Source: Parvibaculum sp.
Lineage (GTDB): Bacteria > Pseudomonadota > Alphaproteobacteria > Parvibaculales > Parvibaculaceae
Length of the DNA: 42,089 bases
Reading direction: 5' to 3'
Assembly: GCA_013823365.1 (NCBI GenBank)
Contig: PNMC01000006.1
Span: 1-42,089, forward strand
Shown: positions 3,735-9,500 of the stretch, one piece after another
Numbering within the stretch: position 1 is the first letter of the stretch
How the letters are laid out: the number at the start of each line of letters is the position of its first letter
Notes under the pieces: generated by a model
Databases searched by the model: none
Told to the model about the DNA's origin: nothing
What the model saw: the letters and a program-made list of their open reading frames with translations, nothing else
Made by a program: the position numbers and the translations under genes

Positions 3735-4631
3735 TCAGGGGCTGAAGCCAGGCGGCGTCACGGGGGCTTCACGCAGCAGGACGATCGAAAGACGCCGGTT
3801 TGCGGCCATATAGGGGTCTTCGGGGAAAAGCGGCTCTGAATCGGCCTTGCCGACGACTTGGTACACCCTGTCGTTTGTAAGGCCCGCATTTTCCAGAATG
3901 CGACGGGCGGCGTTGGCGCGGTCGGAGGTGAGTTCCCAGTTCGAATAGCCGTTGCGGCCTGCCATCGGATTCGCGTCGGTATGGCCCGACACGCTGACGC
4001 GGTTCGGCAGCTTGATCAGGATCTTGCCCACTTCGTCGATGAGTTTGCGCGTGCGTTCATAGGGTTCCGACAGGCCGGTGGGGAACATGGACCGGCCGTC
4101 CTGATCGACGATCTGGATGCGGAGACCTTCCGGCGTCTCGTCGATGATGACATTCCGCGAGAGCTCGGCGAGGTCCGGGTTCTCGCGCATCGACTGGCGG
4201 ATGCTTTCGGCGGCGCTGCGGAAATTCTGTTCGTCGCGCGCGGACTTCTCTTTCATGAGCTTGTCCATCTGCGCGGCCTTTTCCGCCTCTTCCTTTTCGA
4301 TCTCGGGCGTTTTCGGCTGGGCGGGGGTCGAGATGGTCATGATGACCTGCGGCTTCGTGCCCGGCATGCGCGAGCCTTCCTGGTCGAAGGCCGTGCCGCC
4401 CATGATGCCGCCCGCGCCGCTGGTCGAGCGGCTGACATTCGACGGAGCGAAATAGTCGGCAAGACCCTGCTTCTGCTCGGGTGTGGTCATGCTGATGAGC
4501 CACATGAGCAGGAAGAAAGCCATCATCGCCGTCACGAAGTCGGCATAGGCGATTTTCCATGCGCCGCCATGATGGCCGTGAACGACCTTCTTGACCTTCT
4601 TGAGAATGATCGGCTGTTCGTTGGTGGCCAT
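3735..4631 (-). CDS. motB: Flagellar motor stator protein MotB
   Basis: A 298-residue MotB with the classic order: basic cytoplasmic head, one transmembrane helix, a plug/linker, and an OmpA-like peptidoglycan-binding domain. The helix contains YADFVTAMMAFFLLMW with the proton-binding aspartate at residue 31. The linker (about residues 55-140) is rich in Pro, Glu and Lys. The OmpA-like domain (about 165-290) carries SGHTDANPM and the ANRRLSIVLL ending. With MotA it forms the H+-driven stator that turns the flagellar rotor, anchored to the cell wall. ATG 4631 lies 18 bases after the motA stop, so the two are an operon. No other flagellar genes are in the window. All key residues are present. 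Confidence 0.94.
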   Translation of the reverse strand: MATNEQPIILKKVKKVVHGHHGGAWKIAYADFVTAMMAFFLLMWLISMTTPEQKQGLADYFAPSNVSRSTSGAGGIMGGTAFDQEGSRMPGTKPQVIMTISTPAQPKTPEIEKEEAEKAAQMDKLMKEKSARDEQNFRSAAESIRQSMRENPDLAELSRNVIIDETPEGLRIQIVDQDGRSMFPTGLSEPYERTRKLIDEVGKILIKLPNRVSVSGHTDANPMAGRNGYSNWELTSDRANAARRILENAGLTNDRVYQVVGKADSEPLFPEDPYMAANRRLSIVLLREAPVTPPGFSP

Positions 4632-4649
4632 CTGATACCGCTTCCCGGC

Positions 4650-5513
4650 TTAGCCGGCGGCCTGCAATGCAGCCGTCGCCTGTTCGACTTCGATGAAGGT
4701 GGGGCGGACTTCGGACATCAGCGCCTTGCGCGCGAATTCGATCGAGACCGCCGGTGCATAACCCGCCATATGAGCGAGAAGGCCGGCCTTCATCGACAGG
4801 AAATATTTGGACTCGGCTTCGTAGGTGTTGCGAAGCGACTGCGCCATGGGGCCGAAGAAGCCATAGGCGACGAAGACGCCGAGGAAGGTGCCGACGAGCG
4901 CGCCGCCGATCAGGCCGCCGAGCACTTCCGGAGGCTGGTCGATCGAGCCCATGGTCTTGATGACGCCCAGCACGGCGGCGACGATGCCGAGGGCGGGTGT
5001 GCCGTCGGCCAGCGCCTGCACGGCGCTAACGATGCGTTCGCGCTCCTGGTGATGGGTCTCGAGTTCCTCATCCATCAGGGCTTCGAGCTCATGGGCGTTT
5101 TCGGTGCCGAGCGTGATCATGCGCAGGTAGTCGCACATGAACTCGACGGCGTGATGATCGGAGGTGAATTTCGGAAACTGCGCGAAGATGGCGCTTTCGG
5201 CCGGATTTTCGACATGAGCTTCGAGCGCGAGGTTGCCCTTGCTCTTGGCGAGCTTGAAGAGCGTGTATTGCAGGCCGAGAAGCTCGAGGAAGGCATCCTT
5301 GTCGTATCGGGGCCCTTTAAAAAGGGCGCCGAAGATGCTGCCGACGGCTTTGAGCACGGTGGGCGGATTGGCGATGCAGAAGGCGCCGAGAGCGGCGCCG
5401 AGAATGATCACGGCCTCGAAGGGCTGCCAGAGCACCTCGATATGGCCGCCCATGGCCATATAGCCGCCGAAGACGCTCAACAAGACCACAACGATGCCGA
5501 CGATCAGCCGCAT
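4650..5513 (-). CDS. motA: Flagellar motor stator protein MotA
   Basis: The frame is open from 5702, but the conserved MotA N-terminus (MRLIVGIVVVLLSVFGGYMA) begins at ATG 5513, giving 287 residues, the family norm. Four transmembrane helices are recognisable: near residues 1-20, 28-48, about 165-190 and 200-222. The signature stretch between the last two includes DGTPALGIVAAVLGVIKTMGS and the following GGLIGGALVGTFLGVF. The cytoplasmic loop between helices 2 and 3 contains the charged region that contacts FliG. MotA surrounds MotB in the proton-driven stator. motB follows after 18 bases. The 254-base gap to the divergent flavin reductase gene must hold its promoter. Confidence 0.95.
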   Translation of the reverse strand: MRLIVGIVVVLLSVFGGYMAMGGHIEVLWQPFEAVIILGAALGAFCIANPPTVLKAVGSIFGALFKGPRYDKDAFLELLGLQYTLFKLAKSKGNLALEAHVENPAESAIFAQFPKFTSDHHAVEFMCDYLRMITLGTENAHELEALMDEELETHHQERERIVSAVQALADGTPALGIVAAVLGVIKTMGSIDQPPEVLGGLIGGALVGTFLGVFVAYGFFGPMAQSLRNTYEAESKYFLSMKAGLLAHMAGYAPAVSIEFARKALMSEVRPTFIEVEQATAALQAAG

Positions 5514-5590
5514 TTGCTCAAGCACTTTCTGCACATTGCCCCGCGGCTGCCCGCAAGATGCAAGCCCGCCCCGCCAGAAGCGCCATTTTC

Positions 5591-5602
5591 GGGGCATGCC
5601 CC
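5591..5602. promoter_or_regulatory. Perfect 12-base palindrome between motA and the flavin reductase gene
   Basis: GGGGCATGCCCC is an exact dyad about 80 bases upstream of motA and 165 bases upstream of the divergent flavin reductase gene. It could be an operator, but a GC-rich 12-mer can arise by chance and no known regulator site is recognised. Confidence 0.25.
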
Positions 5603-5767
5603 TTAACAGCGGGTTTAACCAAATTGGCGGAAGGCCGAAAACTGGGGTGATTTGCAAGAATTCCGAGAGGTTTGCGCGCCGTGGTGTTGCATGGGCGGCC
5701 ATGCGTGACCTAAACCGGGGGCAAGCGTTAACGGGAGGTTGACGTTTTGCGGCGAAGCGAGGATGCG

Positions 5768-7059: not shown

Positions 7060-7833
7060 ATGCCTGAGGAAAATCTTGAAGTCGAAGGCGCTGAGGGCGC
7101 CGCAAACGGGGCGGAAAACGGCGCGGATGCGATTGCCGGCGCCGCCGATGTGATCGCCGCCTCGGGCGGCGGAGACGCCTGGTATTCGATCGGGTCGCTG
7201 GTCGACAAGGGCGGGCCCATCGTCGCCATTCTGCTCATCCTGTCGGTGATTTCGCTGGCAGTGATTCTCCTCAAGGTCTTCCAGTTCTGGTCGGCCGGGC
7301 TCTCGAAGCGGAGCTTTGTCGATCCTGCCGTCGACAAGATCGAGGCGGGCGACCTCGGTGCGGCGCTCGACATCCTGAAGAAGCACAAGACGCCCCTCGC
7401 CCGCGCGATGGCGGCCGGCGTGCGCGCCAAGATGCGCGGCGACCTGCGCGACGAGGACGTGGCCTCCGAAATCGCGCGTGTCGGCACGATGGAGATCGGC
7501 TCGCTTCAGCGCTATCTGCGCTGGCTCGAAGTGATCGGCAATATCTCGCCGCTGCTCGGCCTTCTCGGTACCGTTATCGGCATGATTAACGCCTTCCAGA
7601 GCCTGGAGGCGGCGGGCACGCAGGTCGATCCGGCGCTGCTGTCGGGTGGTATCTGGGTGGCGCTGCTCACCACGGCGGTCGGCCTTATCGTGGCGTTGCC
7701 GGCGATCACGGCGCTCAATCTCCTTGAAGGCAAGATCGACCAGGTCCGGCTCTCGATGCGGGATGCTTCGGCGCGGGTGATCGCGGCGCTTCACGTGCGG
7801 CCCTCATCCGTTCAATCGAGAGCGGCGCAGTAA
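7060..7833 (+). CDS. exbB: ExbB/TolQ-type proton channel protein
   Basis: A 257-residue member of the MotA/TolQ/ExbB family, which forms the pentameric membrane channel that lets protons drive an ExbD dimer and a TonB-type rod. Three membrane segments are visible: about residues 48-72 (GGPIVAILLILSVISLAVIL), about 155-180 with SPLLGLLGTVIGMINAF, and about 190-215 with LLTTAVGLIVALPAI; the Thr residues and Gly-rich motif of the family are present. It begins with an acidic Ala/Gly/Glu-rich extension of about 40 residues that is not part of the core fold. ATG 7060 follows GGGAGGAG, a strong ribosome site. exbD1 begins 13 bases after the stop, so this is the first gene of a four-gene operon. Confidence 0.92.
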   Translation: MPEENLEVEGAEGAANGAENGADAIAGAADVIAASGGGDAWYSIGSLVDKGGPIVAILLILSVISLAVILLKVFQFWSAGLSKRSFVDPAVDKIEAGDLGAALDILKKHKTPLARAMAAGVRAKMRGDLRDEDVASEIARVGTMEIGSLQRYLRWLEVIGNISPLLGLLGTVIGMINAFQSLEAAGTQVDPALLSGGIWVALLTTAVGLIVALPAITALNLLEGKIDQVRLSMRDASARVIAALHVRPSSVQSRAAQ

Positions 7834-7846
7834 GGCGAGGTTCGCC

Positions 7847-8254
7847 ATGTTTGAAGAACCTGTCCGCCGGAGAGGGATGGCGAGTCTGACACCGCTTATC
7901 GATGTGGTGTTCCTGCTCCTCATCTTCTTCATGCTGACCACGTCGTTTCTGCAGACGCAGTCCCTTGCCGTGGTGACGCCCGCGCCGAGCGTCGACGAAT
8001 TGCCGACGGATGCGCGCGTCATCGAGATCTGGCTGCTCGGTAACGATACGATCGCCATCGACGGCACGCCGGTCGAGCGGGCGGCGCTGGCGGAGAGCCT
8101 TAAGCAGGCGATCGGCGAACGCACCGACCTTACGGTGACGATCCTGGCCGAGAAGGGCTCGAAGACGCAGGCGCTGATCGCGGCCATCGAGGCAGCGCGC
8201 CAGTCGGGGGCGAAAAGCGTCGGTACGGCCCGTGTCGAAAGGATCGCCCCATGA
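7847..8254 (+). CDS. exbD: ExbD-type proton channel partner, first copy (Asp present)
   Basis: A 135-residue ExbD/TolR protein: short cytoplasmic head, one transmembrane helix, periplasmic domain. The helix reads TPLIDVVFLLLIFFMLTTSF, with the essential proton-binding aspartate at residue 19 (GAT at 7901-7903). The periplasmic part (about residues 45-135) has the expected pattern of short strands and a helix. Its stop overlaps the start of the second ExbD by four bases (ATGA), which suggests coupled translation. It should sit inside the ExbB pentamer and pass energy to the TonB-like protein encoded two genes on. Confidence 0.92.
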   Translation: MFEEPVRRRGMASLTPLIDVVFLLLIFFMLTTSFLQTQSLAVVTPAPSVDELPTDARVIEIWLLGNDTIAIDGTPVERAALAESLKQAIGERTDLTVTILAEKGSKTQALIAAIEAARQSGAKSVGTARVERIAP

Positions 8255-8655
8255 TCGAGTTCGACCAGGAGCCGCCGCGGCGGCAATTCGAAACGTTGAT
8301 CCCGCTGATCAATGTGGTGTTTCTGCTGCTGATCTTCTTCCTGCTCGCGGGCACCATGCAACCGGCGGAAAACGTCGCCGTGTCGCTGCCCAAGGGCGCA
8401 CTCAACGACAAGGAGCGCGACCTGCCCTCGACGCTGATCGTGGAGGCGGACGGCTTCGTCTGGCTTGGCGACCGGGTGATGGACGCGAAGCTCGCGGGCC
8501 ATTTTGTGAAACAGCATCTCGGTGAAGAGGGCTCGCGCCGCGTCGCCGTGAAGGCGGATCGGGATGCGCCTGCCGAAGCGGTGCTCGAACTGATGGAGGG
8601 CCTGCGCGAGGCAGGCGTGGAACAGGTGACGCTGCTGACGGAGCGCGGATCATGA
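8251..8655 (+). CDS. exbD: ExbD-type protein, second copy, with Asp replaced by Asn
   Basis: A 134-residue paralogue of the preceding ExbD with the same plan: short head, one membrane helix, periplasmic domain. The helix reads IPLINVVFLLLIFFLLAGTM: the proton-binding aspartate of ExbD/TolR is asparagine at residue 21 (AAT at 8311-8313), while the flanking residues match ExbD1 closely. The frame is intact and overlaps both neighbours by four bases, so this is not a decayed gene. In E. coli ExbD, replacing this aspartate with Asn abolishes energy transduction. The protein may therefore pair with ExbD1 in a heterodimer with one active aspartate, or have a structural role. Confidence 0.9.
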   Translation: MIEFDQEPPRRQFETLIPLINVVFLLLIFFLLAGTMQPAENVAVSLPKGALNDKERDLPSTLIVEADGFVWLGDRVMDAKLAGHFVKQHLGEEGSRRVAVKADRDAPAEAVLELMEGLREAGVEQVTLLTERGS

Positions 8656-9500
8656 GCGTGAGTGCGTCATATCCGGGCGACGGAATGGAACCGCGCGAAT
8701 TCAACATTCGCAAGTTCATCGTCGTTTCCGTGCTGCTGCATGCGCTTCTCTTCCTGTCGTTGCTGCTGACCTTCGGCGGCATTTTCGGCGGGCCGGGGCC
8801 GGGCGGCGGCGAATCCGTCACCTTCCAGCTCGCGGCGGGTTCCGCGAATGACCGTTATGCCGCGCCGCCGGAGCCGGTTGTCGAGCCGGAGCCGCAGCCC
8901 GAACCGGAGCCCGTGAAGCCGCCGGAGCCGAAGCCCGAAACGGCCGTGCGCAAGGATGCGAAGCCCTTGCCGCCGCCCGAAGAGATTCCGGAGCCCGTGC
9001 GGGAGACGGTGCAGCCCGCAGCGCCCGCAGGCGGCGGCGTCCAGGACGGCATGGCCGGCGGGGCGGGCGGCGATGCGGCGGAAACGATCCTCAACAAGAA
9101 GGGCGACTCGCTCACCGCCGGACAGATCCGCTCGCAGATGGTCGGCAAGACCTTTCATCTGGAAATGGGGCGGCTCGATCTGCAGGGCGGCAACAGGCTC
9201 ATCAATACGATCATCGCGCTCGATGGCGGCGGATCGACCAAGGTCGAGCTCATCCAGTATTTCTTCCAGACGTTCCATCGCGGCACCTCGTCCACGCGGA
9301 GCCGGCGCGGCACGGGCCAATGGTGGATCGACGGCAACCGCTGGTGCCACAGGTCGGAAGAAATCCAGTACAACACGACCGACTGCTACGACATGACGCT
9401 CGAGGGCAATATCGTCCGTCTCTATTACGGGCCCTGCACGCAGCAATCCTCGACGCTCTGCAAGACCGGACGTCTCGCCGCCGAGGGCGAAGTCCGCTAG
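8652..9500 (+). CDS. TonB-like anchored rod protein with a non-TonB four-cysteine C-terminal domain
   Basis: A 282-residue protein. About 20 cytoplasmic residues precede one membrane helix (about 22-45) that carries the TonB Ser-x3-His motif (S26, H30). A periplasmic stalk (about 72-125) follows, rich in PEP/PKP repeats as in TonB, then a Gly/Ala-rich linker and a globular end (about 150-282). That end starts LTAGQIRSQMVGKTF and contains GQWWIDGNRWC and DCYDM, with cysteines at 232, 245, 262 and 270 that could form two disulfides in the periplasm. It does not look like the TonB_C fold; the layout recalls DUF995-type small domains (from memory, unverified). It overlaps exbD2 by four bases. I infer that it is the output arm of the ExbB/D motor. 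ATG 8685 (residue 12) is an alternative start. Confidence 0.75.
   Translation: MSVSASYPGDGMEPREFNIRKFIVVSVLLHALLFLSLLLTFGGIFGGPGPGGGESVTFQLAAGSANDRYAAPPEPVVEPEPQPEPEPVKPPEPKPETAVRKDAKPLPPPEEIPEPVRETVQPAAPAGGGVQDGMAGGAGGDAAETILNKKGDSLTAGQIRSQMVGKTFHLEMGRLDLQGGNRLINTIIALDGGGSTKVELIQYFFQTFHRGTSSTRSRRGTGQWWIDGNRWCHRSEEIQYNTTDCYDMTLEGNIVRLYYGPCTQQSSTLCKTGRLAAEGEVR

Follow-up and report, generated by a model that had tools for sequence, protein, structure and literature searches.

In the published models of the MotAB, TolQR and ExbBD motors, the two Asp residues of the subunit dimer take protons in turn, with 36 degrees for each (PMC12583513, PMC12215075), and the two have been described as oriented differently, one lying on the Thr ring and the other facing the cytoplasmic cavity (PMC12905483). 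The locus described here raises the question of how such a motor would be built when the second of two adjacent ExbD proteins carries Asn at the position of that Asp. It lies in a stretch of 42,089 nucleotides of Parvibaculum sp. DNA, called the window below. An earlier note, made from the letters of the window, had drawn attention to this residue and pointed out that the D25N form of E. coli ExbD is inactive, which is likewise stated in a review (PMC11658791).

An Asp/Asn pair of ExbD proteins

The cluster consists of four head-to-tail genes on the forward strand, namely exbB, exbD1, exbD2 and a TonB-like gene. The first (7060-7833) encodes an ExbB-type subunit of 257 aa, recognised by PF01618 (1.3e-30) and by alignment to solved TolQ/ExbB. 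The following two encode ExbD1 (7847-8254, 135 aa) and ExbD2 (8251-8655, 134 aa), which match PF02472 with 76.2 bits (3.2e-21) and 71.2 bits (1.1e-19), respectively, the curated cut-off of this model being 25.4 bits. The last gene (8652-9500) encodes a putative TonB-like force transducer of 282 aa, assigned from an alignment (A2) and a structure model. Start and stop codons overlap as ATGA at 8251-8254 (exbD1/exbD2) and at 8652-8655 (exbD2/TonB-like gene); the note had called the exbD2 frame intact and translationally coupled.

The open reading frames, coordinates and codons on which the earlier note relied were all recovered. Residue 19 of ExbD1 is Asp (GAT, 7901-7903) and corresponds to Asp25 of E. 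coli ExbD, whereas ExbD2 has Asn at the equivalent residue, 21 (AAT, 8311-8313); a profile of ExbD2 orthologues, aligned to the solved E. coli and Serratia ExbD, places Asn21 on Asp25, in agreement with the note. The mid-membrane Asp of energising ExbD/TolR/MotB subunits is accordingly present in ExbD1 and absent from ExbD2, and inspection of the ExbD2 sequence revealed no other acid within the membrane helix that could replace it. On the cytoplasmic side, seven residues before Asn21, ExbD2 has Glu14 (GAA, 8290-8292). The membrane helices are nearly identical, as the note had said, since the stretches PLIDVVFLLLIFFML (ExbD1) and PLINVVFLLLIFFLL (ExbD2) differ at 2 of 15 positions, while over the whole proteins identity is about 33%. 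ExbD2 is otherwise a complete member of its family. Its match covers positions 10-127 of the 128 in the PF02472 profile, its model (mean pLDDT 75) has one membrane helix (16-35) followed by mixed strands and helices, and an ExbD-like periplasmic domain is predicted from profile alignment to 7ajq and 6tyi. Other motors of the window genome have ExbB/TolQ and ExbD/TolR sets of their own.

Conservation of the pair and of its ExbB

Within the order (Parvibaculales), 32 of 40 genomes gave a high-scoring match in an orthologue survey, and the 30 loci that were read all contained the whole cluster. Asp is found in ExbD1 and Asn in ExbD2 of all 30, the Asn being encoded by AAT or AAC depending on the genome and remaining invariant though the ExbD2 orthologues fall to about 51% identity. 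The dN/dS of ExbD2 (0.03-0.23, Nei-Gojobori) is similar to that of ExbD1 and ExbB, and by this measure the Asn copies are under purifying selection, which bears out the impression that selection keeps the gene. One genome (G009) has a second, more divergent Asp/Asn (D/N) cluster (L131) beside the Parvibaculales one.

Wider searches employed the ExbD2 alignment and a DNA pattern for P-[LM]-I-N-[VI]-[VI]-F, which had matches in 52 of the 385 alphaproteobacterial genomes scanned, the reversed control in about 8; two pattern matches with neither ExbB nor ExbD (L083, L085) were dropped. Over all searches, the control described below included, the set comprises 71 aligned Asp/Asn clusters, 70 of them distinct (L122 and L017 belong to the same genome), from about 25 family codes, two of which (f215, f230) lie outside the Alphaproteobacteria. 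Gene order is constant, a single exbB coming first, the Asp-type exbD second and the Asn-type exbD third. The first ExbD has Asp in 71/71 clusters and the second Asn in 70/71, the sole exception (L116:4945-5350) having Ser at the Asp25 position. The Asn-type proteins share a median identity of only 31% with one another, and the Asn is among the six most conserved of the 131 columns of their alignment. The pore helix is their most conserved part, P22, I24 and L29 being invariant and N25, F28 and F33 reaching 98%. A related tandem (L117:4403-5286) whose second copy is Asp, within an altered helix (SLIPLIDVSMF), was excluded from the set; it may have an older origin or result from reversion.

As these searches were seeded with Asn-type sequences, they alone give no measure of how frequent the Asn is. 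A control search for the ExbD family was run over 86 genomes, and 28 single ExbDs and 12 tandems, chosen manually from its matches, were read. All 28 singles have Asp, and the tandems comprise three Asp/Asn pairs and nine Asp/Asp pairs (Asp in 18/18 proteins). The latter, one of which is in the window genome, rule out that the D/N pattern is a general trait of exbD tandems. The tandem in question (L133, contig C1) is a separate exbB-exbD-exbD set, with Asp in both copies, about 5 kb or less from a TonB-dependent receptor gene.

The Asn in every orthologue read in the order and in nearly every cluster of the wider set goes against the finding that the earlier note had named as refuting, Asp in ExbD2 of orthologous clusters. 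That the window comes from a draft assembly of 482 contigs could have suggested a sequencing or assembly error, a one-off mutation or a decaying copy; the 30/30 orthologues, the 70/71 clusters and the low dN/dS rule this out, leaving it a practically negligible chance.

Other positions vary along with the Asn. All 28 single ExbDs have an acid 7-8 residues ahead of position 25, as do 13/18 proteins of the other tandems and 63/71 Asn-type proteins, but only 3/71 Asp-type partners do. The position of Thr21 is Val, Ile or Leu in 70/71 Asn-type proteins, and the Thr is kept in 66/71 Asp-type partners. In the window ExbB, Thr171 and Thr205 correspond to Thr148 and Thr181 of E. coli ExbB, a ring found in all 71 D/N clusters, while Trp199 stands for Ala175, Val200 for Glu176 and Thr204 for Ala180. 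Trp175 occurs in 71/71 D/N clusters, where controls have Ala, Gly or Ser, and Thr180 in 70/71. Glu176, at the periplasmic entrance, is kept in 28/28 single-ExbD systems but has been lost in 45/71 D/N clusters (26/71 keep it); E173A at the matching site of TolQ is lethal (PMC12583513). Judged by these residues, the ExbB of D/N clusters is a distinct type.

When 141 ExbDs were placed in a tree, a single branch (support 71/86), recovered in 74% of bootstrap trees, separated the Asn-type rows from the rest, and the Asp/Asn proteins are set apart from classical ExbD/TolR (94/65), the deep forks being weak because of the few columns available. The Asn-type ExbDs look like the outcome of one old duplication, which is the simplest reading.

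A putative motor with one proton-carrying Asp

The explanation that we favour, and hold to be rather probable on the pattern of residues and genes, is a heterodimer, ExbB5-ExbD(D)-ExbD(N), forming a one-Asp 5:1:1 motor with a dedicated transducer. The ExbB pentamer would hold one ExbD1 and one ExbD2 in place of two identical ExbDs. ExbD1 alone would carry the mid-membrane Asp, which would take up and release protons against the ExbB Thr ring, and the Asn of ExbD2, with a shape like that of protonated Asp, would fill the second helix position without a proton there. ExbD2 would probably also supply the second periplasmic half, and it retains the acid close to the cytoplasmic mouth, lost from ExbD1. 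Proton uptake by the axle would be confined to a single Asp and would not alternate between two. One proton site is thus probable for the motor; this site, the step size, the assembly of the heterodimer and the role of the split acid are all inferred. The heterodimer is favoured because the ExbB type, both ExbDs and the gene order travel together and because two acids are split between the partners; such a split of the N-terminal acid is what would be expected if both occupied one complex. That exbD1 and exbD2 are inherited together is no proof of a shared ring, and an Asp-type homodimer could form within the same ExbB. Moreover, given that E. coli ExbD with D25N has been called inactive, a one-Asp motor would need some compensation.

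The main rival, which we regard as unlikely, makes an ExbD1 homodimer the working motor and ExbD2 a regulator that slows or silences some complexes, the ratio of the two setting activity. The inactive D25N subunit of E. coli (PMC11658791) would make the Asn protein a natural brake, and with separate genes the amounts of the two proteins could differ. Against this, the strict gene order and the overlapping or near-overlapping frames suggest similar dosage, and the ExbB of every D/N cluster has its own signature. In addition, the Asp-type partner has lost the acid shared by all 28 single ExbDs, a change suggesting that this protein can no longer function by itself. A less probable alternative keeps both proteins on one axle with two staggered sites, the Asn subunit conducting through the acid at -7/-8 as a displaced proton site. 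The retention of this acid in Asn-type but rarely in Asp-type proteins would fit, and so would its relation to ExbB: by raw counts, all eight Asn-type proteins that lack the acid pair with an ExbB that keeps Glu176, and 45/63 of those that have it pair with one that lost Glu176, an association that nevertheless follows few lineages. However, the single ExbDs read, all of them with Asp25, have this acid at -8 too, and it therefore need not carry protons. Finally, ExbD2 might sit outside the pore, anchored in the membrane next to an ExbD1 homodimer, and bind peptidoglycan or the transducer in the periplasm. Its selected membrane stretch could pack against ExbB externally, but an external helix would not need to be the protein's most conserved part or to resemble that of ExbD1 so closely, and we give this possibility very little credence.

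The D/N clusters share with the E. coli Ton system (ExbB5ExbD2) the ExbB and ExbD families, the Thr148/Thr181 ring and an operon that includes a TonB-type transducer gene and lies, in some genomes, beside siderophore-uptake genes. They differ from it in having two different ExbDs, one without Asp25, and an ExbB with Trp175 and often without Glu176, and the window transducer has no TonB C-terminal domain. Among solved structures, TolQ is the best sequence match of the window ExbB; TolR, however, has Asp23 in both copies, the essential Glu173 of TolQ (PMC12583513) is matched by Val, and a closer TolQ/TolR candidate exists elsewhere in the window genome. The AglR-AglQ-AglS gliding motor of Myxococcus likewise combines one ExbB/MotA-like protein with two different ExbD/MotB-like proteins, but AglQ and AglS both have the conserved Asp (PMC9389320). 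A further published system similarly combines a single motor gene with two distinct ExbD/TolR genes and a transducer other than TonB, and its description, as far as consulted, mentions no Asn-bearing partner. The heme cluster of Ruegeria sp. TM1040 (Rhodobacterales), exbB-exbD1-exbD1a-tonB, also has one exbB, two exbD and tonB; its second exbD is described as a duplicate, and the receptor hmuR is needed for heme uptake (PMC5225302). The likeness lies in gene content; the description, as far as consulted, does not report the residue at the Asp25 site. No description of an Asn-bearing ExbD partner was found in the open-access literature, subscription papers and preprints being outside the scope of the search, and this silence is a weak sign of novelty.

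If the one-Asp heterodimer is correct, a one-site motor would challenge two-site models of motor turning, since a motor family that, by sequence, lost one Asp long ago would mean that alternation is not required. The D/N pair would also fix which subunit sits where, making these motors ready-made asymmetric complexes for structure and proton-counting work, and many genes that bear the plain annotation ExbD probably do not encode proton carriers.

Transducers and genomic surroundings

The fourth protein is TonB-like by sequence in most D/N clusters, and the scanned TonB-type partners of other D/N clusters match the TonB C-terminal domain (best 2.4e-17). The window transducer has a membrane helix (19-40) with Ser26 and an invariant His30, followed by a Pro-rich linker (alignment A2). 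Sub-threshold matches to TonB models, and TonB_N in 6/25 members, also point to a TonB-type N-terminus, and none of the 25 window-type transducers gave a Pfam match to the TonB C-terminal domain (PF03544/PF13103). The C-terminal part (144-282) is a predicted eight-stranded barrel with four conserved Cys, at 232, 245, 262 and 270. Foldseek with the transducer model gave no match below 0.001; a second structural alignment of the predicted model placed the barrel nearest to ToxS/lipocalin-like proteins (Z 10.7), a predicted fold assignment that rests on that alignment and carries no functional meaning. The four-Cys barrel transducer occurs throughout Parvibaculales and in two other families (L091, L107, L116). 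Two clusters of family f18 (L099, L100) are followed by a membrane-anchored protein that is not TonB. In L100, the only one of the two scanned, it carries a vWA domain, which recalls the system with two ExbD/TolR genes mentioned above; the window cluster has no vWA domain.

Taken as a whole, we see about an even chance that these clusters represent a naturally occurring 5:1:1 rotary motor in which each complex has a single proton-carrying Asp. It would have arisen once, when a duplication left the acidic sites divided between two ExbDs, and would have been retained in about 25 families and coupled to TonB, vWA or lipocalin/ToxS-like transducers.

As to function, plasmids yielded no match to the window ExbD2 or to two other Asn-type proteins used as queries, and a Rhodobacterales query gave matches. 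In Leisingera plasmids, a D/N cluster (ExbD pair Asp, Asn) lies between genes for a siderophore ABC transporter and a siderophore-interacting protein, on one side, and a TonB-dependent siderophore receptor gene, on the other, a role of the locus that is assigned by annotation; TonB is also present there. Among the clusters fetched with flanks, only 6 have a receptor-type (TBDT) neighbour by BLAST, and a general iron-uptake role for D/N motors is therefore not established. In the window itself, MotB/MotA-like genes, assigned from their sequences (MotA_ExbB match), lie on the opposite strand at 3735-5702, about 1.4 kb upstream of the cluster, which makes two motors of one superfamily near neighbours.
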